The notes beneath the pieces were generated by a model, which ran no database searches, was not told where the DNA came from, and saw only the letters and a list, made by a program, of their open reading frames with translations. Shown here in pieces: positions 14,293-49,216 of a DNA stretch of 64,000 nucleotides. The stretch's first letter is position 1. Every line of letters begins with the position of its first letter. The stretch is from Acididesulfobacillus acetoxydans (GTDB lineage Bacteria > Bacillota > Desulfitobacteriia > Desulfitobacteriales > Desulfitobacteriaceae): assembly GCF_902729405.1 (NCBI RefSeq), contig NZ_LR746496.1:2728001-2792000 (forward strand). The letters are read 5' to 3'. Position numbers and translations under genes: made by a program.

Positions 14293-15267
14293 ATGCCTGT
14301 CACTTTAGTTAAGGAAAGGTTTCCCAGCAAGGTCGGTGAGGTCATTCTGGGAGCCACCTCGGAACAGGGAGGTACGCGCACTTCCACGGTCGTCGTGGGT
14401 GGCGACAACCTTTTACCTTTCTTGCATTTCGAAGGGAAGGTCGTAAACCGTCCGGTCATCGCCATGGAGGTCACAGACATCGTTCCGCCTTGGAATGAAG
14501 CCATAAAGGCTCAATTTGGCGACGTGCTGGACAATCCGGCGGCTTGGGCGCAAAAATGCGTGAACGAGTTCGGAGCCGACCTCATTTATTTGAAACTCAT
14601 CGGCGCCGATCCCGAAGGGTTTAACCGTAGCCCCGAAGACTGCGCGCGGGTGGTCAAGGAAGTCCTGGCAGCGGTCGGCGTCCCCCTGGTCGTGGTAGGA
14701 TGTGAAAACGCCGAGAAGGATAATGAGGTCCTGGCGGCGGTCGCCGAGGCGGGTGCCGGTGAAAATCTGCTCCTGGGCTTGGCGGAGCAGGATAATTACA
14801 AATCGATTACGGCGGCTGCCATGGTGCACAAGCACAATGTCATTGCCCGTTCGCCTCTTGATATCAATATCTGTAAACAGCTCAATATTCTGATCAACGA
14901 AATGGGGCTTCCCTTGAACCGGATCGTGATCGATCCTATGATCGGAGGTCTGGGTTTCGGGATTGAATATGCTTATTCCATTATGGAACGGGCGCGCTTG
15001 GGCGCTCTGGCCAATGATAAAATGCTTTCCATGCCCATGATTTGCACCGTCGGCTATGAGGCTAATCGTTCCAAGGAAGCCAATGCTTCGGCAGAGGAGT
15101 TTCCGGGGTGGGGCGATTTGGCGCAGCGCGGGGTTCTCTGGGAAACCCTGACGGCCACGGCTTTGCTTCAGGCCGGAGCCAGCATCCTGCTGATGCGGAA
15201 TCCTGAAGCCGTCAAACTGGTGCAGCGCAATATTGCCGACTTGGTCGACGCGGAAGTGGGAGCCTGA
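14293..15267 (+). CDS. acsD: Corrinoid iron-sulfur protein small subunit
   Basis: The 324-residue protein is the delta subunit of the CFeSP, a TIM barrel that pairs with AcsC to hold the cobamide. It shows the family features [10 protein letters not shown] near 58 and [15 protein letters not shown] near 215. The ATG at 14293 follows AAAGGAGAG; the frame is open further upstream but that part has no matching start signal. It sits directly upstream of acsE. Confidence 0.95.
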
Positions 15268-16110
<843 letters not shown>

Positions 16111-16165
16111 GCAGAGTACCCCTGTTTGTGCTCATTGAGTCAAGTGTGATCGGAGTCACAGGGAT

Positions 16166-16195
16166 AGTCCCCAGGGAATTTTCCTGGGGACTTTC
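16166..16195 (+). terminator. Rho-independent terminator after acsE
   Basis: A 10-bp stem AGTCCCCAGG/CCTGGGGACT with loop GAATTTT is followed by the short run TTTCTTCCC. It could attenuate rather than fully stop transcription, because the next gene is only 30 bases further and has no clear promoter. Confidence 0.7.
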
Positions 16196-16222
16196 TTCCC
16201 TTGGCGAGTTGGAGGTGAGACC

Positions 16223-17770
16223 ATGCCGGTTCCGCGGCCAAGTGAAGGTTCCGGTTCGTTTTTTGCCGTCAATTCCGCGGTTCTGGTTGTGGGCGACGGT
16301 CCCCCGGCAGAGGCGGCGGTTTCCGCTCTGCGGGCGCACCCGGTCTTCTGGGTCGGGGCGACGGCTGAACCCGGGCCCCACGTCATGGCTTATGCGGACG
16401 AGAGCGTAGCGGAAGTCCGCGGGCAGCGCGGCCGTTTTCGGGTACAGCTCGAGGGTAAGCAGGGGAAACTCTGGTTGGAATGCGGGAATGTGGTACTGGC
16501 ACCCAGTCTGCAACGCACTTTGGACCCGTCTTGGCATCTGCCGGAAAGCCGTTTGGCGGTATCTGTCTCCCGGGCAGCGCGGCTTGCGGTTGAAAGGGGA
16601 CCTGTAGTCTTTTTGCTGGGCGGCGGCGAGACTGAGGGGTACTTCTCTGCCCTGACAGCCCTGAGAGAGGCGGTGTGTCTGGCCGCGCGACAAGTGGAGG
16701 TCTATTTCTTCTTTGCCGATCTTGGGGTATCTTGGCCGGGGTTGGAGGAAGTCCACCAAGAAGCGCGCAGGCTGGGGGTCCGCTTCATTCGGATCAGTGA
16801 CACTTCGGCGTTCAGAGTCGCTGAGGAAGGCGGGTTTTTGCGCGTGCGTTACACGGATGCCTATCTGCCCGGGTCACCCGAGTTTTCCCTGACGGCAACC
16901 TACGTGTTTGCCGGGGAAGTCGGCCTGCCCGGTTCTGATTTTGCCGAGTTGGCTCGGACCTTCCGGATCGACCGCGATCGCTGGGGTTTTTTGCAAAGCG
17001 ACAATGTCCGTCTCTTTCCGGTCCGGACGAATCGTCCGGGTGTATATGTCTTGGGTGAGGCACGAGGACCGGCTTTTGCGGGCGAGGCGGGGCTGGACGC
17101 GGCGGCCATTGCCGGCGAAACAGCACCCTTTCTGGCGGGGGAGATCCTTGTGGCGGAACCGTGGCTGCGCGTCGATCCGGCCCGCTGCTCTTTTTGTCTG
17201 GAATGTGATCGGTATTGCCCAGCGGTCGCTCTCGAGGTGCACAGGGCGAGAAAAACCGTTGCAATCAATCCTTTGGCCTGCCTTGGCTGTGGGATATGTG
17301 CCGGGGTATGTCCGGAGCACGCCATCGCCTATCCCGGGCCCGAGACCAAAAGCGGGCGCCGGCAAGGCAAAACGATTGTGTTTGCCTGTGAAAAGTCCGG
17401 CTATCTGGCCGCTCAGTCCATCCCCCTCCCCGCGTGGGCGGCAACTTTGGAAATGATCCCGCTGCCTTGCGCCGGGAGGCTGGACGAAGGAATGGTCCTG
17501 AGGGCCTTGGCCCAGGGTGCGGTTCAGGTGATCGTATCGGCCTGCAGGGAGCAATGCTGTCACTATTCAAGCGGTGAACGGCTGGCCGAAGAAAAGGTGC
17601 GGGCTCTGAAAGAACATCTCGGAAGCATGGGGCTCAACCCCGGCAGAGTGACCTTAGTGCGGGCGTCAGCTAACGCCCCGCGTGAGTGGCTGGGGCTCGT
17701 CCGGGAAATTATCGCGGGTGATGGAACCGGCCCGGGGGAAACGGGAATGGAAAAGTGCGCCAAAACTTGA
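16223..17770 (+). CDS. HdrA/QmoB-like protein with 2[4Fe-4S] ferredoxin and MvhD domains
   Basis: The 515-residue protein joins three parts. Residues 1-310 look like a divergent HdrA/QmoB flavin-type domain in which the usual N-terminal GxGxxG is weak (VVGDGPPAE). Residues about 320-365 hold two ferredoxin clusters, CSFCLECDRYCP and CLGCGICAGVCP. Residues 385-500 form an MvhD-type domain with CREQCC. QmoB has this order of domains. The protein would pass electrons between a flavin partner and an unknown donor or acceptor. It lies 13 bases before an HdrA/QmoA-like gene, so the two probably form a complex serving the acs cluster. Substrate and partner are inference. Confidence 0.75.
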   Translation: MPVPRPSEGSGSFFAVNSAVLVVGDGPPAEAAVSALRAHPVFWVGATAEPGPHVMAYADESVAEVRGQRGRFRVQLEGKQGKLWLECGNVVLAPSLQRTLDPSWHLPESRLAVSVSRAARLAVERGPVVFLLGGGETEGYFSALTALREAVCLAARQVEVYFFFADLGVSWPGLEEVHQEARRLGVRFIRISDTSAFRVAEEGGFLRVRYTDAYLPGSPEFSLTATYVFAGEVGLPGSDFAELARTFRIDRDRWGFLQSDNVRLFPVRTNRPGVYVLGEARGPAFAGEAGLDAAAIAGETAPFLAGEILVAEPWLRVDPARCSFCLECDRYCPAVALEVHRARKTVAINPLACLGCGICAGVCPEHAIAYPGPETKSGRRQGKTIVFACEKSGYLAAQSIPLPAWAATLEMIPLPCAGRLDEGMVLRALAQGAVQVIVSACREQCCHYSSGERLAEEKVRALKEHLGSMGLNPGRVTLVRASANAPREWLGLVREIIAGDGTGPGETGMEKCAKT

Positions 17771-17782
17771 GGCGGTGAGAGC

Positions 17783-18826
17783 ATGAGCGACATCCTGGTT
17801 CTGGGTGCCGGCATAGCCGGAATGAGCGCTGCCTTGGACCTGGCCAATGCCGGGTTGGGAGTCTACCTGTTGGACAAGGAGAAGGAAATAGGGGGTAAAG
17901 CCGCGCACTATGCGTGCAAAGCCGGAAGCAACTGCCGGAAATGTTCGGCCTGCCTGGTTCCTTATATTAAATATCAGCTCGAGCGGCATCCGAATGTAAG
18001 AATTCTTCCCTTTAGCCTTTGTACCGATTTGCAGGGCGAACCCGGACATTTTCGGGCTTCGGTGCGGCTGCTCAACGAGAAGCGCCAAGATCTGGGAGCG
18101 GAAACTACGCTCGAGGTCCGGGCTCTGGTTGTAGCTACGGGATTTGATCTCTATGATCCCACACCCAAAGAGGAATTCGGCTATGGCAGGCACAGGAACG
18201 TAATCACGGCTTTGGAACTCGAACAGGCCTTATGGGGCTTTCCCGCTCTGAGTGCGGCTTTCGGAGAAAACCTGCGGCGCATAGGCTTTATTCAGTGTGT
18301 GGGCAGCCGGGACGCCCAGAACGGATATCCTTACTGCTCGCGAATATGCTGTGGCTACAGCGCCAGGCAGGCCCTGAAATTGGAATCCGATTTGCCGGGG
18401 GCGGATATTACTCTCTTCTACCAGGACAGGCAGACTTTCGGCAAGGGACCGGGTTTCTTCCGGCGGGAGCTCGGCTCCCACACCCACATCCGTCCGGTCC
18501 GCGGCCTGCCGGCTAAGATCTTCCGTTACCCGCGCGATGAGTTGACCGTGCGCTATACGGATATCGAACAAGGACAGGTACGGGAGGAAGGGTTCGATTT
18601 GGTTGTGCTCTGTCCCGCGGTTATACCCGCCCGCAGTGGTCCGGATACATTCCCGGCACTGGGTCTCGAGCGCGATCAAAATGGGTTTTACTTGGAAAGA
18701 GATGTCGGTGTAAGTTCCCGCAAGGGAATCTTCCTGGCGGGAACGTGCCAGGGCCCCAAAGACATCCCCCAGTCGATCGCTCACGCCAAAGCCGCCGTCG
18801 GTCGGATTCTGCGCTACTTGGCTTGA
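17783..18826 (+). CDS. HdrA/QmoA-like FAD oxidoreductase subunit
   Basis: The 347-residue protein starts with the FAD fold LVLGAGIAGM (G8, G10, G13). Cysteines 45, 51, 54 and 57 follow, the HdrA/QmoA cluster pattern, and CVGSRD plus CSRICC occur later. Its size matches QmoA rather than the about 650-residue HdrA of methanogens. With the preceding QmoB-like protein it forms a two-subunit flavin/FeS module. No HdrB, HdrC, QmoC or hydrogenase gene is adjacent, so the terminal partner is unknown. A terminator follows at 18826-18858. Confidence 0.8.
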   Translation: MSDILVLGAGIAGMSAALDLANAGLGVYLLDKEKEIGGKAAHYACKAGSNCRKCSACLVPYIKYQLERHPNVRILPFSLCTDLQGEPGHFRASVRLLNEKRQDLGAETTLEVRALVVATGFDLYDPTPKEEFGYGRHRNVITALELEQALWGFPALSAAFGENLRRIGFIQCVGSRDAQNGYPYCSRICCGYSARQALKLESDLPGADITLFYQDRQTFGKGPGFFRRELGSHTHIRPVRGLPAKIFRYPRDELTVRYTDIEQGQVREEGFDLVVLCPAVIPARSGPDTFPALGLERDQNGFYLERDVGVSSRKGIFLAGTCQGPKDIPQSIAHAKAAVGRILRYLA

Positions 18827-18858
18827 CCGGCCTTCTTCAGTGAAAGAGGGCCGGTTTT
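18826..18858 (+). terminator. Terminator at the end of the acs-hdr unit
   Basis: The stem ACCGGCC/GGCCGGT (18826-18832 with 18849-18855) is followed by TTTTGCTTT. It begins on the last base of the preceding stop codon. Confidence 0.75.
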
Positions 18859-18993
18859 GCTTTCCCATCTCGGGCCGGAAGTCCCTTTTTCGGTGCACCC
18901 GGAAAGAATCTGGGGAGCGAAGGCCGCCGGCCCTTCTACGCTGGGCACGACGAGCATAATGTTCCTTAAGGAATATTCTGGAGGTGGACAAAC

Positions 18994-20886
18994 TTGGAAA
19001 CCTATTTTTCGGGCAATGTCCGGGTTCAGGAATTGACAGACCTGATCGTCGAGAAGCTTTTTACGGTCTGCCTGCTCTCAGGGAAAGACGCAGCGGATGA
19101 ATTCGTCAAAGGCAGGGCGGCGGTGGAGAAACTCGGGCAAATTCTGCTCGACTTGAGGTCTCTTTCTCAGGCCGCCCTCGTGGACGGCCTTATTCAACTG
19201 GTTGAGCAGAGGTTCCCTGATCGGAGAGTGACGAATAATTTTCCGTCCATGCGTTCTACCTTGGAGGACATGGTCCGGGAAGGAGTCGCTAATCTGAGCG
19301 CTTTCTTCCCGGCGATGCCCGCAACCGACAGTTCAGTCAAACAAGAGCTTGCGGGCGAGGGTGGTACGAAAGTCGTCTTGCCGGGGGGGAAAACCCCCGC
19401 AACTCGCGCGACTCCAGTCACGTCCGCGGAACCGCAAATGCCGGTGCGCTCCGCCCACTGGAGTCTTTCGCAGCAACCGGGCAGCGCGGTCGTTCGGGTG
19501 GAAAAAAGTATGATTACAGGCAACATGATCGGGGGATCTGCGGGACAGCCGCCTAAGAAAGACGAGGCCGCCGGAGAACCGCTAAAGAAAGATAAGGCTC
19601 TGCCTGCGTCCGAAGCAAACCCGACTAAGGAGACCGAGGACAAAGGCTCCTCCGCGGGGCAATTTTCGGCTCCCACTTTCGTGCTTGATCTCCACCCGGC
19701 CATGACAACTCCTGCCGCGGCCAGAGTCTGGCCCCCGTTGCTTCAAGGCGTGCGAACGGCCGCAAGTGACGACGGAAAGACAGCGGCGACTAAAATCGAA
19801 CCCCCGGTCATCCTGGAATCCGTGTCATCTGAGGTCAGGGAGGGTATAGCCAAAGCCGAGTCCAAGCCCGCCGAGGTCAGGGAGAGTATAGCCAAAGCCG
19901 AACCGAAGTCCGCCGAGGTCAGGGAGAGTATAGCCAAAGTCGAGCCCAAGCCCGCCGAGGTCAGGGAGAGTATAGCCAAAGCCGAACCCAAGCCCGCCGA
20001 GGTCAGGGAGAGTATAGCCAAAGTCGAGCCCAAGCCCGCCGAGGTCAGGGAGAGTATAGCCAAAGCCGAACCGAAGCCCGCCGAGGTCAGGGAGAGTATA
20101 GCCAAAGCCGAACCGAAGCCCGCCGAGGTCAGGGAGAGTATAGCCAAAGCCGAACCCAAGCCCGCCGAGGTCAGGGAGAGTATAGCCAAAGCCGAACCGA
20201 AGCCCGCCGAGGTCAGGGAGAGTATAGCCAAAGCCGAACCGAAGTCCGCCGAGGTCAGGGAGAGTATAGCCAAAGCCGAACCGAAGTCCGCCGAGGTCAG
20301 GGAGAGTATAGCCAAAGTTGAGCCGAAACCTCCAAAGGTCAAGGAAAGTGTCGTCAAAGTCGTGGCGAAGGCACTCGAATTCAAGGAGAGCGTGGCTAAA
20401 AGCAAACTCAAACCTCCCGAGGCCAAGGTGAGTGCGGTTAAGGCCGAGGCAGGTTCCCCGGAATCGGCAGGCAGAGAGGGTAAGGCCAAAGCCTCGTTCG
20501 GCAGGGAGCCGGTGCCGGCAGATGTCGGTAGGGAGCCTCTGTCCACAGAAAAGGAAACGGTAAAGTCCGCGGCACCGGGGCCGAACCGTGGGCTCCCGCG
20601 CCAGTCCCCTTTGCCGCCGGAAGCCATACGGCTGGGAGCGGTTCTCAAATACCTCTTTTCCGGCCAAGGAATCCGTTGGGATATTTCATTGGCCAACTGC
20701 CCCTTTCTGGCACAGGTGGCCGACCTCCTGGTATATGTGGCAGACGGCCAAGAATTGCACCCCTCGATCCCCCTCTTAAAAAAGGAGGGCTGGAGGATAG
20801 TGGTATTTTCGCGGGAGGACATTTCTTTTCCTCGGCGAATGGAACGAATGATCCGGATGGCTACGCGACGGGCAAGTTCCCAGTGA
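18994..20886 (+). CDS. Repeat-rich protein of unknown function next to degS
   Basis: I do not recognise this 630-residue protein. Residues 1-105 form a predicted helical domain without motifs. About 110-279 is Ala/Pro/Thr-rich linker. Residues 280-489 hold fifteen 14-residue units of the type EVRESIAKAEPKPA, twelve nearly identical. Residues 530-630 form a second conserved-looking domain rich in hydrophobics (LGAVLKYLFSGQGIRWDI). The highly charged repeat suggests an extended helical or PPII spacer between two small domains. There is no signal peptide or membrane segment. The TTG start follows GGAGGTGG. It lies 180 bases upstream of degS in the same direction, so a link with that signalling pair is possible. 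Confidence 0.7.
   Translation: METYFSGNVRVQELTDLIVEKLFTVCLLSGKDAADEFVKGRAAVEKLGQILLDLRSLSQAALVDGLIQLVEQRFPDRRVTNNFPSMRSTLEDMVREGVANLSAFFPAMPATDSSVKQELAGEGGTKVVLPGGKTPATRATPVTSAEPQMPVRSAHWSLSQQPGSAVVRVEKSMITGNMIGGSAGQPPKKDEAAGEPLKKDKALPASEANPTKETEDKGSSAGQFSAPTFVLDLHPAMTTPAAARVWPPLLQGVRTAASDDGKTAATKIEPPVILESVSSEVREGIAKAESKPAEVRESIAKAEPKSAEVRESIAKVEPKPAEVRESIAKAEPKPAEVRESIAKVEPKPAEVRESIAKAEPKPAEVRESIAKAEPKPAEVRESIAKAEPKPAEVRESIAKAEPKPAEVRESIAKAEPKSAEVRESIAKAEPKSAEVRESIAKVEPKPPKVKESVVKVVAKALEFKESVAKSKLKPPEAKVSAVKAEAGSPESAGREGKAKASFGREPVPADVGREPLSTEKETVKSAAPGPNRGLPRQSPLPPEAIRLGAVLKYLFSGQGIRWDISLANCPFLAQVADLLVYVADGQELHPSIPLLKKEGWRIVVFSREDISFPRRMERMIRMATRRASSQ
19831..20460 (+). repeat. 42-bp tandem repeat (15 units, 12 near-identical)
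   Basis: Twelve 42-bp units from 19831 to 20334 differ at only a few positions, mostly GCC/GTC, CCC/CCG and CCC/TCC swaps. Three decayed units continue to 20460. The unit length is a multiple of three, so gain or loss of units keeps the frame. The low divergence suggests recent expansion or ongoing homogenisation. Confidence 0.97.
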
Positions 20887-21066: not shown

Positions 21067-22203
21067 GTGGCCGACCGGCTGAATGAAATATTGAAAAACA
21101 CCATGAACGCTATTGAAACCGGCAAAGAAGAGATTTTTTACATTTCCGAGATGACCCGTACGGAGATACTGCGCCTAAGTCAGGAATTGTCTCAACTCCG
21201 TCTCGACCTTGGGCAGACGATCATCGATGTCGATAAACAATACCGGGAAGAACGGCGGGCCCGGCAAAAATTAATGGAGGTCAACCGCGATTATAAGGGA
21301 CACTCCGAGGAGGAAATGATCAAGGCGTATGAAAACGCCAAGAACTGCCAGGTCAAACTCCAACTCTTGCAGGCGAAAGAGGTTCAATTACGCACTCGCA
21401 GAGATGAAATAGAACGTTCCTTGAAACAGATGGGGCAAACGATAGAACGGGCGGAAAACCTGATGGCTCAGGTAAACATGGCCATTAGCCTATTGCAGGG
21501 CGGTATTTCGGAGTTGTCCATCCCGCTGACGGCAGAGCAAAAACAGGAGATCGGCGTGCGCATCATTAAGGCACAAGAAGAAGAAAGACGGCGTGTGGCC
21601 AGAGAGATTCACGACGGGCCGGCCCAGACTCTGGCCAATATTGTTTTGCGGCTGGAAATCACGGATAAGCTGTTGGATATTGACGCGGACAGGGCTCGGG
21701 CCGAGATCAAAGATCTAAAGCGTCTTGTTCGCTCTAACCTACAGGATATCCGTCGCATCATTTTTGACCTGCGTCCCCTGGATCTGGAGGATCTTGGCCT
21801 AGTGGCGGCGATGGAAAAGTACCTGGAAAATTTCGAAGCCAAATGCGATGTGCACGTGGAACTGCGGATAGAAGGAGAGGCGGTCCGTCTGCCCTCCGCT
21901 CTGGAATTGGCCTTGTTTCGTTTAATTGAGGAATGCCTGAACAACGTTGCCAAGCATTCGCGCTCAGTGCGGGCCCGGCTGGAAATACGGTTCGGACCGG
22001 AATGGATCAATATTCGCATCATAGACTACGGTCAGGGGTTTGACGTAACGGAGATATTTGACAAACCCGGAGAACATTTCGGTCTCATCGGGATTAAGGA
22101 ACGGGTTGATTTGTTTTCCGGACGCTTTTCCCTCCGGTCCTCCCCCGGAAAAGGGACAACCGTTGAATTTGGTTTTCGTTCGGAGGGAGGGGCTTTTCTA
22201 TGA
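21067..22203 (+). CDS. degS: Sensor histidine kinase DegS-like
   Basis: The 378-residue cytoplasmic protein has a long N-terminal coiled coil (about 25-150). A HisKA_3 dimerisation segment follows with phospho-acceptor histidine in AREIHDGPAQT near 180, and an HATPase_c domain to the end (NVAKHS, IDYGQGFD, GLIGIKERV). There is no membrane segment, as in Bacillus DegS. It starts with GTG and overlaps degU by four bases (ATGA). The input signal is not visible; the coiled coil is the usual DegS sensor. Confidence 0.92.
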   Translation: MADRLNEILKNTMNAIETGKEEIFYISEMTRTEILRLSQELSQLRLDLGQTIIDVDKQYREERRARQKLMEVNRDYKGHSEEEMIKAYENAKNCQVKLQLLQAKEVQLRTRRDEIERSLKQMGQTIERAENLMAQVNMAISLLQGGISELSIPLTAEQKQEIGVRIIKAQEEERRRVAREIHDGPAQTLANIVLRLEITDKLLDIDADRARAEIKDLKRLVRSNLQDIRRIIFDLRPLDLEDLGLVAAMEKYLENFEAKCDVHVELRIEGEAVRLPSALELALFRLIEECLNNVAKHSRSVRARLEIRFGPEWINIRIIDYGQGFDVTEIFDKPGEHFGLIGIKERVDLFSGRFSLRSSPGKGTTVEFGFRSEGGAFL

Positions 22204-22838
22204 TTCGGGTTGTTGTTGCCGACGATCACCCGCTGTTGAGGGAAGGACTGCGCCGGATATTGGAGCTTGAGGGTGGAATAAAGGTTGTGGATGAAGCCGG
22301 GGATGGGCAGGGGGCCATCAACTTGGCTCGCACCGTTCCTTTTGATATTCTTCTGATGGACCTGAATATGCCCGGGGTCAACGGTTTGGAAGCGTGCCGG
22401 ATCATTAGAAGGGATCAACCGCAGATCGGTATCCTGGTCTTGACAGTGGACGATTCTGATGAGAAAATCTTAGAAGTATTGCAGTTGGGTGTAGCGGGTT
22501 ATCTGTTGAAAGATGTCGATTCCCACACCTTGGTAGAATCTATCCGCAAGGTGTATACGGGGGAGCCGATTCTGTCTCCTACGGTGACGGGCAAGCTTCT
22601 GGGCCGGCTTTCCCAGACCGGTCACCATCCAACCACCTGCGGCTTAACTGACCGGGAATTGCAGATTTTGACGTATGTGGTAGGTGGCTCTTCCAACCGG
22701 GAAATCGGAGGGGCTCTCTTTATCAGTGAAAAAACAGTGAAAAACCACCTGTCAAGCATCTTTCGCAAGCTCAACGTTGAAGACCGCACTCAGGCTGCCC
22801 TCAAGGCCGTAAAGATCAAACTGGTCAAATTGGAGTGA
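22200..22838 (+). CDS. degU: Response regulator DegU-like (NarL/FixJ family)
   Basis: The 212-residue protein has a receiver domain with acidic pair D8-D9, phospho-acceptor D54 in LLMDLNMPG and a conserved lysine in YLLKD. A LuxR-type helix-turn-helix follows at about 148-205 (LTDRELQIL, SEKTVKNHLSSIFRKL). It is translationally coupled to degS. In Bacilli this pair controls exoenzymes, motility and competence; here the targets are unknown. Confidence 0.92.
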   Translation: MIRVVVADDHPLLREGLRRILELEGGIKVVDEAGDGQGAINLARTVPFDILLMDLNMPGVNGLEACRIIRRDQPQIGILVLTVDDSDEKILEVLQLGVAGYLLKDVDSHTLVESIRKVYTGEPILSPTVTGKLLGRLSQTGHHPTTCGLTDRELQILTYVVGGSSNREIGGALFISEKTVKNHLSSIFRKLNVEDRTQAALKAVKIKLVKLE

Positions 22839-22846
22839 ATGCTTAA

Positions 22847-24553
22847 ATGAAAATTTCCTTTTTGGGTGCGGCACAAGTCGTTACCGGGTCTTCTTACTTG
22901 GTGGAGTCGGGCGATTTCCGCTTGCTGGTCGACTGCGGTATGTTTCAAGGTCCAAAAAGGCTTAAGGAGCTGAACTATCGGGAGTTCCCTTTTGATCCGG
23001 CCGGGATCGACGCAGTGGTCTTGACCCATGCCCATACGGACCACTCGGGCCTGATTCCCAAACTCGTGAAGAAAGGATATTCCGGACCCATCTGGTCCAC
23101 GCCGGAAACAGCGAAACTCTGTTCAATCATGCTGCCGGACAGCGGTCATATTCAAGAGATGGAGATCGAGCGCAAGAACCGCAAACGCACCAGGGCGGGC
23201 CTTCCGCCTCTGGAAGCCATTTATACGGCGGAAGATGCCAGACGCGTCCTGTCGCAGTTTAAAACTTTGAATTACGGCGAGAAAATGAACCTCTCGCCGA
23301 CGCTGGCCTTCCACTTCCGTGATGCCGGTCATATTTTGGGTTCCGCCCATGTCGTTCTGGACGTCACTGAAGACGATTGCCGGAAAACCTTTGTTTTTTC
23401 CGGAGATATCGGCAATATCGATCAGCCGTATATCGAAAATCCGAGCCTTCTCTCTTCCGGGCAGGTAGTTCTGATGGAAACGACCTACGGAGACCGCTTG
23501 CATCACGACTCCGCTCAGCGTTTGGAACAGTTGGCGGGAGTTATCCGGGATGCCCACCAAGCCGGGGGAAACCTTGTCATCCCGGCCTTTGCCATTGAGC
23601 GCACCCAGGATCTCCTCTACTACATAAGCAGGCTCCAGGACACGGGCAGAATTCCGGTTCTCCCGATTTATATAGACAGTCCTTTGGCCATCGCCGCGAC
23701 CCAGATTTTCCAGACTGAGATCAAACACTTTGACCGGGAGACCCAGGAATTGATAGCCAAAGGCGAAAATCCGCTGGCGATGCCCAATGTTCATTTCAGT
23801 CAAACGGCTGAAGACTCGATAGCGCTGAACGACATTCAGGGGGCCATTCTCATTGCCGCCAGCGGCATGGCCGATGCCGGGCGGATTAAACACCACCTTA
23901 AACATAATCTATGGCGTGCCAATGCCACGGTTCTCTTTGTCGGCTACCAGGCCGAAGGAACGCTGGGGCGATTACTCCTGGACGGTGCCAGCCTGGTTAC
24001 TATTCACGGCGAAAAAGTGGCTGTGCACGCCAGGATTCGCTCTGTCGACGGTCTGTCCGCGCATGCCGATCAGAACGAACTCCTGACTTGGTTGTCGGCA
24101 CTTGAGGCCACAGCCGAGAATATCATCTTGGTACACGGTGAACCTGCGGTTCAAGCCGCTTTTGCGGCCAAAGTGCTCGGGCGCTTTGGCAAGAACGCGC
24201 TCATCCCTGAGTTGGGGGAAACCTTCGAATTTTCGTCCGGAGAAGTCATTCGCCGCGCACCCGCGCAGCCTTGGCTGACGATTCCGGCGGAGAGCGGGGT
24301 GCGGCCGGAAAAAGCTTCCGCTGCCGGCGGTACTTTGCCGCCGTCACCTTTGCCGCCGCTGCCGGAACCCGGCGGTTCGACAGACCGGCGCGGCTCCAGG
24401 GCCCAAGTGAACCGGGCTTATATCCGCCTGCGCCATCAGTTGAAACACCTGGTGGACGAAGGACAAAGGCAGCGTAATTTCGACCAGGTCGCCCGCACCT
24501 TGGAGACCATGACCCGCTGGCTGGAAAGCTTGCGCAATCCCCGCCGCCGGTAG
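22847..24553 (+). CDS. MBL-fold/beta-CASP RNA-type metallo-hydrolase
   Basis: The 568-residue protein begins with a metallo-beta-lactamase domain, with zinc ligands HAHTDH at 61-66 and further ligands in [10 protein letters not shown] and SGDIG. A beta-CASP domain follows, then an RMMBL segment ([10 protein letters not shown] and VHGEP). This is the YSH1/CPSF73-like bacterial group, related to but distinct from RNase J. The last 100 residues are Pro-rich followed by a basic helix and may contact RNA. It starts 8 bases after degU and is probably co-transcribed. Confidence 0.88.
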
Positions 24554-32207: not shown

Positions 32208-33941
32208 ATGAGCAAGGTTATCATCGTCGGCGGTGGCTTGGCGGGCTTAATGGCGGCGATAAAAATAGCGGAAGAGGGCTCCTCGGTCGACTTGTTTTCT
32301 TTGGTCCCCGTAAAGAGATCTCACTCCGTCTGCGCCCAAGGAGGCATCAACGGAGCGGTCAACACCAAAGGAGAGGGAGATTCGCCCTGGGAGCATTTTG
32401 ATGATACGGTTTACGGCGGGGATTTTCTGGCTAACCAGCCGCCGGTCAAGGCGATGTGTGAGGCGGCACCGAACATTATTCATTTGATGGACCGCATGGG
32501 CGTTATGTTCAACCGGACCCCCGAAGGACTTTTGGACTTCCGGCGTTTTGGCGGCACAAAGCGGCACCGGACGGCTTTTGCCGGAGCAACGACCGGGCAG
32601 CAGCTCCTCTATGCCTTGGACGAGCAAGTTCGCCGCTATGAAGTGGAAGGGTTGGTCAAGAAACACGAGTTTTGGGAATTCCTTGCCGCAGTGATTGACG
32701 ACGGCATCTGCCGGGGGATCGTCGCCCAGAATCTGCGCGACATGAGCATCGAGGCCTTTGCCGCCGACGCGGTGATTATCGCCACCGGCGGCAACGGCAT
32801 GATCTTCGGCAAGAGTACAAATTCGACGATTAATACGGGCTCTGCCGCTTCTCTGCTCTATCAGCAGGGAGTCAAATATGCCAACGGGGAGTTCATTCAA
32901 ATTCACCCCACGGCCATTCCGGGTGAGGATAAACTTCGTCTGATGTCAGAGTCGGCCCGCGGCGAAGGCGGGCGGATTTGGACGTATAAGGACGGCAAAC
33001 CGTGGTATTTCCTAGAGGAGATGTACCCGGCTTACGGAAACCTGGTTCCGCGCGATATCGCGACCAGAGCCATCTATCATGTGGTTTTTGACCAAGGTCT
33101 GGGCGTGAACGGTGAGAATATGGTTTATTTGGATCTTTCGCATAAGGATCCCCATGAACTGGAAGTCAAATTGGGTGGGATTCTCGAGATTTACGAGAAG
33201 TTTGTCGGGGACGACCCGAAAAAAGTTCCTATGCGCATTTTCCCGGCCGTTCACTATTCGATGGGAGGCCTCTGGGTCGACTATGACCAGATGACCAATA
33301 TTCCCGGCCTTTTTGCGGCCGGGGAATGTGAATACCAGTATCATGGGGCCAACCGCCTGGGGGCGAATTCCCTTGTATCCGCCATTTATGCCGGTATGGT
33401 CTCCGGACCGAAGAGTCTGGAATATGTGAGTAAGAATAAAATCAAAACGCCAAGCGCGGATGAACCGGCTTTTCAAAAGGAGAAGAAACGCCAAGAGGAG
33501 AAATGGGCCCGGATCCTGAACATGCACGGTCATGAAAACCCCTATCTCCTGCACAAAGAACTGGGCGAACTGATGACTGAGAATGTGACGGTGGTGCGTT
33601 ACAATGACAAGTTAGAGGAAACGGATCGCCGCTTGCAGGAAATGATGAAACGCTGGCAGAATATCGGGGCCGATGATCCGGTGGTTTGGAGTTCACAGAT
33701 AGCTCCTTTCACCCGGCAGCTCTGGAATATGATGGAGTTGGCCAGGGTGATTACTTTAGGGGCCTTGCGCCGCAATGAGAGCCGGGGAGCCCACTACAAA
33801 CCGGACTATCCGGAACGCGACGACGCGAACTGGCTGAAGACGACGCTCGCGACTTGGACGCCCAAGGGGCCGGAGTTCAGTTATGAACCGGTTGACGTTT
33901 CCTTGATTCCGCCGCGGGCGCGCCACTACGATGTGGATTAA
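32208..33941 (+). CDS. sdhA: Succinate dehydrogenase/fumarate reductase flavoprotein subunit
   Basis: The protein of about 577 residues carries the FAD fold VIIVGGGLAGL at the N-terminus. The histidine of RSHSVCAQGG near residue 39 binds FAD covalently. HPTAIPG and SESARGEGG hold active-site residues, and GANRLGANSL occurs in the FAD domain. It matches the Bacillus-type (SQR/QFR type B) group. I prefer ATG 32208 because AAGGAG is 7 bases upstream of it; ATG 32202 is too close. It follows sdhC after a repeat-filled gap of about 110 bases. Confidence 0.95.
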   Translation: MSKVIIVGGGLAGLMAAIKIAEEGSSVDLFSLVPVKRSHSVCAQGGINGAVNTKGEGDSPWEHFDDTVYGGDFLANQPPVKAMCEAAPNIIHLMDRMGVMFNRTPEGLLDFRRFGGTKRHRTAFAGATTGQQLLYALDEQVRRYEVEGLVKKHEFWEFLAAVIDDGICRGIVAQNLRDMSIEAFAADAVIIATGGNGMIFGKSTNSTINTGSAASLLYQQGVKYANGEFIQIHPTAIPGEDKLRLMSESARGEGGRIWTYKDGKPWYFLEEMYPAYGNLVPRDIATRAIYHVVFDQGLGVNGENMVYLDLSHKDPHELEVKLGGILEIYEKFVGDDPKKVPMRIFPAVHYSMGGLWVDYDQMTNIPGLFAAGECEYQYHGANRLGANSLVSAIYAGMVSGPKSLEYVSKNKIKTPSADEPAFQKEKKRQEEKWARILNMHGHENPYLLHKELGELMTENVTVVRYNDKLEETDRRLQEMMKRWQNIGADDPVVWSSQIAPFTRQLWNMMELARVITLGALRRNESRGAHYKPDYPERDDANWLKTTLATWTPKGPEFSYEPVDVSLIPPRARHYDVD

Positions 33942-45972: not shown

Positions 45973-46887
45973 ATGTTTGATCTCCTTATTATCGGAGCAG
46001 GTCCGGCAGGGTTGACAGCGGGGATTTACGCGGCCAGGGGCGGGCTTAAAACCGGAATTCTTGAATTGGGAATGCCGGGCGGGCAGGCCGCTTCCACGGA
46101 GAAGATTGAGAATTATCCGGGCTTTCCCGAGGGCATCGGCGGCTATGAGCTCATGAACGCCTTTCATCAACAGGCCTTGGCTTTTAAAGCGGACTTCATC
46201 TTTGAAGAAGTACAAAAGCTGGATTTGGAGGGCCCAGTCAAACGTGTAATTACGGATGTGCAAAGCCATGAGGCGAAGGCTGTGATCATTGCCGCCGGTT
46301 CCAAGCCGCGTTCTTTGGGAGTTCCGGGAGAAGATGTTTTCCGCGGCCGGGGCGTTTCTTACTGTGCGACTTGTGACGGGGCCTTCTTCCGCGATAAACG
46401 GGTCGTTGTCGTGGGAGGCGGGGACGCGGCTTTGGAAGAAGGGGCGTACCTGACCAAATTTGCCGCCGAGGTCGTGATCGTGCACCGGAGACAAGGGTTC
46501 CGCGCGGCCCAGATCGCGGTGGACCGGGCCAGGGAAAATAAGAAAATCCGTTTTCTCCTGGACAGCGTGGTGGAAGAGATCAAAGGCGGAGACAAGGTGG
46601 AAGGAGTCAGGATCAAGAATGTGGTCAGCGGGGAAAGGCAGGACCTGCCCGCCGATGGGGTTTTCATCTACGCGGGTACCGAGCCGAACGCCCAGTTCGC
46701 CCATGACGGGCTGACCGCGGATGGACGGGGCTATATCGTCACCGACGCATTGCTGCGCACCAATATTCCCGGTGTCTTCGCCGCCGGCGATATCCGGACC
46801 ACACCGCTGCGCCAGGTGGCGACGGCGGTCGGCGATGGGGCTCTGGCTGCCGTTCAAGTTGAGAAATACTTGACGGAGCAGGAATAG
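45973..46887 (+). CDS. trxB: Thioredoxin-disulfide reductase
   Basis: The 304-residue protein has the FAD motif IIGAGPAGL (7-14), the redox pair CATC at 131-134 and the pyridine nucleotide motif VVVGGGDAALEE. VIVHRRQGFRA is the typical NADPH-type signature, and AAGDI is the second FAD site. It reduces thioredoxin with NADPH. No trxA is adjacent. The gene is flanked by its own promoter and a strong terminator. Confidence 0.95.
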   Translation: MFDLLIIGAGPAGLTAGIYAARGGLKTGILELGMPGGQAASTEKIENYPGFPEGIGGYELMNAFHQQALAFKADFIFEEVQKLDLEGPVKRVITDVQSHEAKAVIIAAGSKPRSLGVPGEDVFRGRGVSYCATCDGAFFRDKRVVVVGGGDAALEEGAYLTKFAAEVVIVHRRQGFRAAQIAVDRARENKKIRFLLDSVVEEIKGGDKVEGVRIKNVVSGERQDLPADGVFIYAGTEPNAQFAHDGLTADGRGYIVTDALLRTNIPGVFAAGDIRTTPLRQVATAVGDGALAAVQVEKYLTEQE

Positions 46888-46897
46888 GTTCACGGCA

Positions 46898-46933
46898 CAG
46901 GGGGCAAGAGCACTTTCGCCCTCTGTTTTTTTT
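46898..46933 (+). terminator. Terminator of trxB
   Basis: CAGGGGGC (46898-46905) pairs with GCCCTCTG (46918-46925) with one G-T pair and is followed by eight T. Confidence 0.9.
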
Positions 46934-47063
46934 GGGCTATTGCCAACCATTAAAGATTTCTTGTTTTTTTTCAGGGGTTGTACTATCATGTACATGTGTG
47001 GAAAAATGTCCGCGATCGGCAGTGGGGTATAGTGTATCATAAAGCAATAGGGGAGGGATCAAT

Positions 47064-47897
47064 TTGCACTTCGTGGTATGTTTGAAACAGGTTCCGGACA
47101 CTTCGGAGGTTCGGATCGACCCGAATACGAACACCCTCATGCGCGAGGGCGTTCCTTCAATTATTAATCCGTATGATGCCCACGCCCTGGAAGAGGCCAT
47201 CCGCCTCAGGGACAAAATGGGAGGCAAGGTGACCATTGTCAGCATGGGGCCGCCTCAAGCCAAGGAGGCCCTGCGCAAGGCCATGTCTTTCGGAGCTGAC
47301 CGGGCGATTCTGCTGACCGACAGGGGGTTTGCCGGTTCGGACTCTCTGGCCACCGCTTATATCCTGACGGTGGCCATCCAGAAGATTCATGCGGAAGAAC
47401 CCATTGACATTGTCTTTACAGGCAAAGAAGCGATCGACGGGGATACGGCGCAGACCGGACCGGGAATTGCCCAACGGCTCGGTTTTCCGCAGCTGACTTA
47501 CGGGATCAGGGTTCGTGAGATTGACAATACTTCCGTGACCGTGGAGCGGAAAACGGAGGGAGGCCGGGAAGTGGCCAAGGCCTTGCTGCCCGCGTTGATC
47601 ACGGTGGAGAAGGAAATGAATGAACTTCGCTACGCGACGCTGCCTGACATGATGAAGGCCGCCGTCTACGAGCCGGAAATGTGGGATGCCAAGTCCCTGC
47701 CTTATGATACGGCAGAAATGGGGTTAAAAGGCTCGCCCACCAGCGTCTCCAGGATTTTCCCGCCTCCGGGTCGCAGCGGCGGGGAGCGCATCGACGCCAC
47801 GACGGATCCCAAAGGCGCAGTGGCCAACCTGGTTGAAAAAGTGTTTCAAGAGAATATTATTATGGTTCATCCCGCAGTGAAGGGAGGCAGGGCTTAA
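47064..47897 (+). CDS. etfB: Electron transfer flavoprotein beta subunit (FixA type)
   Basis: The 277-residue protein has the EtfB signature, with MHFVVCLKQVPDTSEVRID at the start, INPYDAHALEEA near 34 and FTGKEAIDGDTAQTGPG near 118 (nucleotide-binding loop). In bifurcating EtfAB this subunit binds the FAD that reacts with NADH. The TTG start follows GGGGAGGGA. The stop overlaps the etfA start (TAATG). First gene of etfB-etfA-fixC-fixX. Confidence 0.93.
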   Translation: MHFVVCLKQVPDTSEVRIDPNTNTLMREGVPSIINPYDAHALEEAIRLRDKMGGKVTIVSMGPPQAKEALRKAMSFGADRAILLTDRGFAGSDSLATAYILTVAIQKIHAEEPIDIVFTGKEAIDGDTAQTGPGIAQRLGFPQLTYGIRVREIDNTSVTVERKTEGGREVAKALLPALITVEKEMNELRYATLPDMMKAAVYEPEMWDAKSLPYDTAEMGLKGSPTSVSRIFPPPGRSGGERIDATTDPKGAVANLVEKVFQENIIMVHPAVKGGRA

Positions 47898-49216
47898 TGT
47901 CTGTTGTTGTTGACAAGACAAAATGCATCGGGTGCGGAGCCTGTGTGGTCGAGTGCCCGGTTGAAGCTTTGGACCTGGTGGATGGGACTGCCACGGTCGA
48001 CCCGGCAAAATGTAAAGAAACCGGGAGCTGTGTTACGGTCTGTCCGGCCAATGCCCTGAGCTTGGAGGCTAAAGCCGCCGCTCCGGCCGCCAAGAAAGCG
48101 GATGCCGGTGCAGCCAAAGAGTTTAATGCCAAAGAACCCCTGCCCAAAGCGGTCCAAGACTATGCTAAGACGAATGCGGCCAAATCCGCGCCGGTGGCCG
48201 GGGGAGACGTTTGGAGCGGCGTCTGGATCATTGTCGAATACAACCACGGCAGAATCGCCCCGGTTTCCTGGGAACTCTTGGGCGAAGGCCGTAAACTGGC
48301 TGATGTCATAGGCTGTGAGTTGTGCGCCGTCATCACCGGCTATCAGGTCGATCACGTCATTAGGGAGGCCTTTGCCTACGGGGCGGAAAAAGTCTATGTC
48401 ATTGACGACCCGGTTTTGGAGAATTTCCGCACGGAACCTTATGCCGAAGCGATCACAGGTCTGGTACGAAAATATCAGCCGGAAATCATACTTATGGGTG
48501 CCACCGCTATCGGCCGGGATGTCTTTCCCGCCGTGGCCACCCGTTTGAGAACCGGATTGACGGCCGACTGCACCGTGCTCGGTATTGATCCCGAGACCAA
48601 GCTTCTCCAGCAAACCCGCCCGGCCTTCGGCGGCAACATTATGGCCACGATTCTCTGCCGCAGCCGGAGGCCGCAGATGTCGACGGTCCGCCCCCGGGTG
48701 ATGGCTATGCCGGCCAGAGTGGAAGGGCGCAGCGGAGAAATAGTCCGCGAACAGCAATCTATGACGGAAGACGAGATCCGGACGAAAGTCCTGGAGTTTA
48801 TTCCCGGAGACGCCAAAAGCATCTTCTTGGACAAGGCCGAGATCATTGTTGCCGTCGGCCTGGGAATCGCTTCCCAGAAAAACCTGCCCCTGGTGGAAGA
48901 ACTGGCGGACAGCCTGGGTGCGACTTTGGCCTGTACCCGCGGTGTCGTGGAAGCAGGTTGGATGTCACATGATCATCAGGTGGGACAAACCGGGGTGACC
49001 GTCCGTCCGAAGGTTTATATAGCCATCGGCATATCCGGTGCGATCCAGCACCTGGTCGGCATGGAGACTTCCGACTACATCATTGCCGTTAACAATGATC
49101 CGGAGGCGGGAATTTTCCGGGTGGCCAATTACGGTATCCTAGGGGACCTATTCCAAGTGGTTCCGCTGCTAACGGCCGAATTTAAGAAGCGCCTTCAGCA
49201 CGGCGTGGCAAATTAA
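47897..49216 (+). CDS. etfA: Electron transfer flavoprotein alpha subunit with N-terminal ferredoxin
   Basis: The 439-residue protein starts with a two-cluster ferredoxin domain (residues 8-60, CIGCGACVVECP and CKETGSCVTVCP) and an Ala/Lys linker. The EtfA body follows, and the FAD-binding domain II lies in the last third (TRGVVEAGW, QVGQTGVTVRP, AIGISGAIQH, NNDPEAGIF). The ferredoxin fusion resembles that of bifurcating caffeyl-CoA reductase EtfA (CarE) and suggests direct ferredoxin traffic. It is coupled to etfB and followed by a FixC-type quinone oxidoreductase. Confidence 0.93.
   Translation: MSVVVDKTKCIGCGACVVECPVEALDLVDGTATVDPAKCKETGSCVTVCPANALSLEAKAAAPAAKKADAGAAKEFNAKEPLPKAVQDYAKTNAAKSAPVAGGDVWSGVWIIVEYNHGRIAPVSWELLGEGRKLADVIGCELCAVITGYQVDHVIREAFAYGAEKVYVIDDPVLENFRTEPYAEAITGLVRKYQPEIILMGATAIGRDVFPAVATRLRTGLTADCTVLGIDPETKLLQQTRPAFGGNIMATILCRSRRPQMSTVRPRVMAMPARVEGRSGEIVREQQSMTEDEIRTKVLEFIPGDAKSIFLDKAEIIVAVGLGIASQKNLPLVEELADSLGATLACTRGVVEAGWMSHDHQVGQTGVTVRPKVYIAIGISGAIQHLVGMETSDYIIAVNNDPEAGIFRVANYGILGDLFQVVPLLTAEFKKRLQHGVAN

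Follow-up and report, generated by a model that had tools for sequence, protein, structure and literature searches.

Two HdrA-type proteins after the acs genes of Acididesulfobacillus acetoxydans as a probable electron-transfer module of methylenetetrahydrofolate reductase

The electron partner of MetVF-type methylenetetrahydrofolate reductases (MTHFRs) is still debated (PMC8760232, PMC9430772). Among the MTHFR types I-IV listed in PMC8760232, the Type IV or Hdr-type enzyme HdrCBA-MvhD-MetVF of Moorella thermoacetica and Sporomusa ovata combines MetVF with HdrA-type flavoproteins and MvhD (PMC8760232, PMC9430772). In Thermacetogenium phaeum, hdrA and an MvhD-like gene flank metVF after acsE, in the order acsE-[MvhD-like]-metV-metF-[hdrA], while hdrBC lies elsewhere; this cluster, metVF included, was published as part of an HdrABC complex and not as a family of its own (PMC6895022), and a similar one is described in Ca. 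Contubernalis (PMC10608574). Acididesulfobacillus acetoxydans INE oxidizes acetate via the reversed acetyl-CoA pathway, the enzymes of which are found in its proteome (PMC8982180). Here we analyse a stretch of 64,000 nucleotides (nt) of the A. acetoxydans genome (NZ_LR746496.1, positions 2,728,001 to 2,792,000; "the window"), in which two adjoining genes, P1 and P2, encode HdrA-type flavoproteins directly after acsE. We propose, with a probability of roughly 0.6, that P1 and P2 are the electron-transfer module of a MetVF-type MTHFR, here most likely serving a MetF-MetV fusion encoded elsewhere in the genome.

The pair and its place among HdrA-type flavoproteins

The genes, domains and cysteine sites are as follows (THF, tetrahydrofolate; aa, amino acids).
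15298-16110, + strand: acsE (methyl-THF:corrinoid/FeS protein methyltransferase), the final acs gene before P1; NCBIfam NF005719, 338 bits
16223-17770, + strand: P1, 515 aa, HdrA-type flavin-like domain followed by 2[4Fe-4S] and MvhD
16274-17137, + strand: P1 flavin-like domain (TrxR/HdrA fold), residues about 18-305, with a degenerate nucleotide motif
17168-17329, + strand: P1 2[4Fe-4S] domain, residues about 316-369
17375-17710, + strand: P1 MvhD/FlpD domain, residues 385-496
17783-18826, + strand: P2, 347 aa, small HdrA/QmoA-like flavoprotein
17915-17953, + strand: P2 motif C45-x5-C51-x2-C54-x2-C57, present in 29/29 P2 rows
18296-18352, + strand: P2 HdrA-type cysteines C172, C185, C189 and C190, flavin-domain [4Fe-4S] by homology

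Open reading frames, domain matches and a structure model of P1 bear out the coordinates and the QmoB-like domain order (flavin, 2[4Fe-4S], MvhD) that a preliminary description of this DNA had assigned. The pair closes a gene row acsA-acsB-acsC-acsV-acsD-acsE, in which AcsV, going by its NCBIfam name, is presumably the corrinoid activator; 112 nt with a strong hairpin separate acsE from P1, only 12 nt separate P1 from P2, and a Shine-Dalgarno-like stretch is seen by eye before each. Residues 146-488 of P1 match positions 404-756 of the NCBIfam HdrA2 model, and an N-terminal HdrA-type domain present in two relatives (G039, G041) is absent from the window's P1. The AlphaFold model of P1 (mean predicted local distance difference score 79.6, predicted template modelling score (pTM) 0.69, from an 11-row alignment) has an HdrA/TrxR fold over residues about 15-310, for which HdrA is the best structure match (Z 21.5 over 291 residues against 7bke_A, 20.6 against 5odc_A), ahead of thioredoxin-reductase-like and related chains at Z 15 to 17. 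Its flavin motif, suspected from the start to be degenerate, indeed reads GDGPPA, and strand 2 does not end in an acidic residue; the complete GxGxxG...E is intact in several P1 relatives. Of 34 P1 rows, the window's own among them, 33 have all eight cysteines of the 2[4Fe-4S] domain, the exception being the G037 fusion protein, which lacks the domain; the MvhD cysteines C389, C416, C441 and C446 are found in 32, the other two rows being gapped here; in four of the 34 rows MvhD is a separate gene that was appended to P1 for alignment.

P2 matches Pyr_redox_2 and HdrA2 and, along its whole length, the Hyphomicrobium HdrA-like protein (6tjr_A), which like sHdrA resembles it in size and fold. Its HdrA-type cysteines are nearly invariant (C172, C185 and C190 in 29/29 rows, C189 in 28/29). 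The additional four-cysteine motif, probably an extra Fe-S site, is incomplete in all compared proteins (four QmoA, three HdrA and two sHdrA-like rows); the QmoA and HdrA rows retain two of the four cysteines.

In a tree of 48 hand-picked flavin-domain rows (353 columns; five rows, the window's own P1 among them, of odd composition), P1 and P2 each form a single clade (15 and 13 rows, support 100/99 for both), all of these rows being from order members and from the named loci among the 26 treated below. QmoA (six rows) and QmoB (four rows) group together with 100/100 support and leave P1 and P2 outside, so that the Qmo name of the preliminary description had to be given up. The genome's true qmoAB lies at about 509-513 kb of the chromosome contig (G000:C1), in a locus of about 509-518 kb with qmoA, qmoB, an HdrD-like gene, etfB, etfA and a gene for a 701-aa cysteine-rich membrane-type protein; QmoAB of A. 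acetoxydans is published as DEACI_0456-0457 and HdrF1 as 0461 (PMC8982180). QmoAB and P1/P2 are alike in being two HdrA-type flavoproteins, one of them with C-terminal Fe-S and MvhD parts, but P1/P2 belong to other clades, P2 has its four-cysteine motif, and neither QmoC/HdrBC nor aprAB/sat adjoins them, acs genes standing upstream instead. An AprA-like stretch (22% identity) lies 13 kb away, at 32211-33827. A blastx search of the window against the genome's own proteins (1e-5, overlapping weaker matches filtered) gave no match for HdrB, HdrC, MvhG, MvhA or a QmoC/HdrD-like protein, and none for MvhD outside P1; the pair thus stands, as had been noted, without HdrBC, QmoC or hydrogenase.

Relatives of the pair and their metV-metF neighbours

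The evidence that carries our proposal is gene order in relatives. A survey with alignment A1 matched 116 of 398 Bacillota genomes at <=1e-30; many of these matches are ordinary HdrA by hit length, and 40 neighbourhoods were picked by score and hit layout, with P1 and P2 assigned by best blastx match against a reference set that also holds HdrA, Qmo and MvhD. In 37 of these 40, which are not a random sample, metV and metF stand beside P1; all or part of P2 can be seen in 36 of the 37 (the remaining locus runs off the end of its contig), and in 25 there is an adjoining acsE with an identity of at least 59%. The commonest order elsewhere in the phylum is acsE-P1-metV-metF-P2, and the published order in T. 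phaeum, compared by description, fits it, again with no hdrBC at the locus (PMC6895022). The three exceptions are HdrA-MvhD (L238) and HdrA-MvhD-MetVF (L240, L241). The link to methylene-THF reduction suggested in the preliminary description thus finds strong support in synteny.

Among 61 genomes (the organism's own and 60 near relatives), full-length P1 is found, besides the window, in G001, G003, G009, G011, G015, G039 and G041; G011 and G039 have P1-metV-metF-P2, and in G041 the contig ends after metV. The closest named genome, Peptococcaceae bacterium CEB3, has a P1 of 90% identity, and homologues with P2 nearby occur in many genera at about 26-44% identity; P1 is therefore not a chance occurrence. 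Of 26 loci of relatives, 13 (L073-L083, L085, L086) were assigned to P1 and the others matched HdrA-type references best. Outside Bacillota, three loci from records titled Deltaproteobacteria/Desulfobacteraceae (L083, L085, L086) have metV-metF-P2-P1. P2 and P1 form a single polypeptide in UBA6811 (L081, 933 aa) and, with no MvhD part, in Ca. Acetocimmeria (L082, 805 aa); at least four P1 loci encode MvhD separately. In seven of the 37 P1 loci (L212, L213, L219, L221, L226, L236, L237), metF is followed by an HdrC-type gene, which in most of them opens another Hdr cluster; L080 and L086 have an HdrC/HdrD-like gene after P1. No third partner gene was seen to be common to all 12 flanking stretches from 11 loci.

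One relative, G037, differs in its architecture: the flavin-like half of P1 is fused to P2 with neither Fe-S nor MvhD parts (L051, 6847-8904), and the genome has a separate HdrCBA-MvhD-MetVF cluster (L138).

Compared with Type IV MTHFR, the window's locus has the HdrA-type flavin protein and MvhD; hdrB/hdrC and metV-metF are absent, and HdrA is replaced by P1 and P2 of their own clades. The pair has the cysteines by which we delimit the module (C-x5-C-x2-C-x2-C in P2, eight ferredoxin and four MvhD cysteines in P1). P1/P2 are best read as an Hdr-type module usually without HdrBC that had been glimpsed in print in Thermacetogenium; in the open-access literature searched, we found no description of them as a family apart from HdrA, or of their orphan state.

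A likely reductase partner in trans and the competing readings

In five genomes of three genera (the organism's own, G000, with G001, G003, G009 and G015), P1 and P2 adjoin directly after acsE with no metVF between them. A loss of metVF can be traced in G003, where P1 continues directly into the final 41 nt of metF, with its stop codon, and then P2; the remnant is identical to the corresponding letters of G011, a member of the same genus (Desulfosporosinus) that keeps metVF, both being metagenome-assembled genomes by their record titles. Because P1 is joined to this end of metF, metV and nearly all of metF have been deleted in G003, and since G011 keeps them, vertical inheritance would make this loss independent of the one that we infer for the window's genus. 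At the window's own P1-P2 junction, the 19 nt from TTGA to the P2 ATG match the metF stop and spacer of G011 at 17 positions, which is too short to claim a remnant. P1 and P2 are under purifying selection: the ratio of nonsynonymous to synonymous change (dN/dS), from one pair of genomes of the window's genus and a simple counting method, is 0.157 for P1 and 0.096 for P2 (AcsC 0.087, AcsE 0.021, histidine kinase 0.111, repeat protein 0.296), and the low values tell us that the pair has been retained. All five orphan genomes retain every one of the P1 cysteines (eight of ferredoxin type, four of MvhD) and of the P2 cysteines listed above (eight).

Co-occurrence with metF/metV, a check that the preliminary description had proposed, turned out differently at the two scales: metV-metF is missing from the locus, and a single unlinked gene accounts for the genome's one MTHFR match and its one DUF5981 match.
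G000:C1:566,702-568,327: MetF-MetV fusion, 541 aa, the only methylene-THF reductase found in the genome
The fusion retains the C-terminal cysteines of MetV and is the likeliest partner of P1/P2, with which it would form a physical complex. A related fusion (76%) stands directly after acsE in G056, which ties such fusions to the same pathway. In the oxidative direction, that of a sulfate reducer living on acetate oxidation, electrons from methyl-THF would pass to the flavin of MetF and on to the Fe-S cysteines of the MetV-type domain, from this cluster to P1 ([2Fe-2S] of MvhD and 2[4Fe-4S]), and from P1 to the flavin and Fe-S sites of P2 and a low-potential or membrane-linked acceptor; the flow would be reversed in the reductive direction. 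Hand-over of electrons from MvhD to an HdrA flavin is expected by homology with Hdr complexes; the path as a whole is our proposal. Methyl-THF oxidation (-200 mV) does not allow direct electron transfer to NAD (-320 mV; PMC6895022). A membrane-linked acceptor is plausible because in T. phaeum methyl-THF is oxidized independently of NAD, and the activity with benzyl viologen peaks in the membrane fraction (PMC6895022).

Several observations weigh against our proposal: (i), the N-terminal half of MetV, possibly the docking site of P1, is missing from the fusion; (ii), six of six relatives (G004, G007, G012, G014, G025, G027) share this acs locus but have no P1/P2 in it, acsE being followed by a repeat gene, a kinase and a regulator, and in four of these relatives (G004, G007, G012, G027) DUF5981 is matched just once, within a frame (530-572 aa) that we regard as the fusion, which implies that the fusion does not need P1/P2; (iii), the HdrC-type genes after metF in the seven loci named above mean that HdrBC may belong to some forms; (iv), structure prediction of the pair, also proposed in the preliminary description, was carried out on the natural P2-P1 fusion of UBA6811 and gave a pTM of 0.46 with unusable domain packing, so that a model was obtained and no interface is supported. 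A broader view, which we hold tentatively and with the odds somewhat against it, is that P1/P2 are a separate and widespread type of MTHFR partner, which in several related genera has become a free-standing unit that outlives repeated deletion of the reductase genes and acts in trans with the fusion or on the carbon monoxide dehydrogenase/acetyl-CoA synthase (CODH/ACS) side.

Alternatively, the pair might have been repurposed after the loss of metVF to serve some other electron transfer in the acs cluster, such as that between CODH/ferredoxin and a respiratory acceptor, or the reduction of the corrinoid protein. Its retention directly after acsE in five genomes of three genera, the purifying selection and the relatives that manage with apparently the same fusion and no P1/P2 would all fit; we nevertheless consider repurposing unlikely, given that AcsV, the usual corrinoid reactivator, is present and that the orphan loci share no partner beyond acs neighbours that pair-less relatives have as well.

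Rather less likely still is a bifurcating or confurcating module of the kind proposed for Moorella, in which methyl-THF would be coupled to NAD(H) plus ferredoxin or a different carrier. E356 and K409 of HdrA are a marker pair for bifurcation near the flavin (PMC9430772). Across 29 P2 rows, the equivalent glutamate is kept in 28, and the lysine site holds R in 13, K in 12, H in three and E in one; the window's P2 has E147 and, in place of the lysine, R195, and so fails this two-residue marker. In Moorella itself, the involvement of ferredoxin could not be confirmed (PMC6895022, PMC8760232). The flavin of the window's P2 is, from these residues, more likely a relay than a bifurcating centre, a role from which P2 members with lysine at this site may differ.

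That the pair is a decaying relic of the metVF deletion seems improbable: metVF was indeed lost beside it in G003, and P1 has a degenerate nucleotide motif and is less constrained than P2, but the dN/dS values, the open frames and the listed cysteines kept in five orphan genomes speak against decay. A second QmoAB serving adenosine 5'-phosphosulfate reductase, which the QmoB-like order of P1 and the reduction of sulfate by A. acetoxydans (PMC8982180) might evoke, is hardly credible and was rejected, as the tree contradicts it, the genome has its own qmoAB elsewhere and the pair is associated with metVF and acs.

Surroundings of the locus and implications

Two structured elements flank the pair.
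16166-16192, + strand: hairpin AGTCCCCAGG...CCTGGGGACT, between acsE and P1
18825-18856, + strand: 13-pair stem resembling a terminator, overlapping the stop codon of P2
The exact core pattern of the hairpin occurs once in the genome, and a hairpin is present in the acsE-P1 gap of 6/6 other order members compared; that of G001 is identical, and in the other five the letters differ but still pair. The hairpin may tune the proportion of acs to P1/P2 transcripts. Relatives with no P1/P2 have hairpins after acsE as well, several followed by a T run (by eye). A promoter/terminator scan of the region gave no excess over shuffles (five found, shuffle mean 7.7), and Rfam gave a single match on 15000-19200 (E 0.8, below the gathering score), away from the hairpin.

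Downstream of P2, a 630-aa protein (18994-20886) carries a long tandem repeat, with units such as AEPKPAEVRESIAK, between conserved N-terminal and C-terminal regions; in the order members examined its relatives sit after acsE or P2, and in L202 and L203 P2 is followed by a 218-aa protein that looks similar by eye. The genes for a histidine kinase, a response regulator and a metallo-beta-lactamase-type protein (21067-24553) stand beside acs in relatives with or without P1/P2, which suggests a dedicated sensor system; as a specific partner of P1/P2 the set was rejected, being present in 6/6 relatives that lack the pair.

Other flavoprotein and Fe-S loci were seen on the way. In the window, EtfB- and EtfA-like genes lie at 45988-49189, with a stretch 30% identical to HdrA upstream. 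Elsewhere in the genome, and distinct from the qmo locus, an AprB/AprA-like pair (115 aa with 2Fe4S; 583 aa, FAD_binding_2) is accompanied by HdrA-like, MvhD and further Fe-S genes (L012 6184-12653; G000:C1 about 4.377-4.384 Mb). This sulfate reducer also has an sHdr-like cluster of HdrB, HdrC, HdrC, a 364-aa HdrA-like protein and HdrB (L141 5816-10508; G000:C1 about 3.148-3.153 Mb), with no P1 or metVF there; the tree places its sHdrA-like protein away from P2. An MvhD domain near 9325 of L010 (G000:C1:1927325-1927696) contains one in-frame TGA and is a selenocysteine candidate; one TGA is also found in many HdrA matches of relatives.

The electron partner of MetVF-type MTHFR decides whether energy is conserved at this step of the Wood-Ljungdahl pathway, and how acetate oxidizers reverse it. 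A conserved module of two proteins, mostly without HdrBC in the loci seen, is smaller and more tractable than the six-subunit Moorella complex, and its orphan form, in a cultured and fully sequenced acetate oxidizer, asks what such a module does without dedicated reductase genes.

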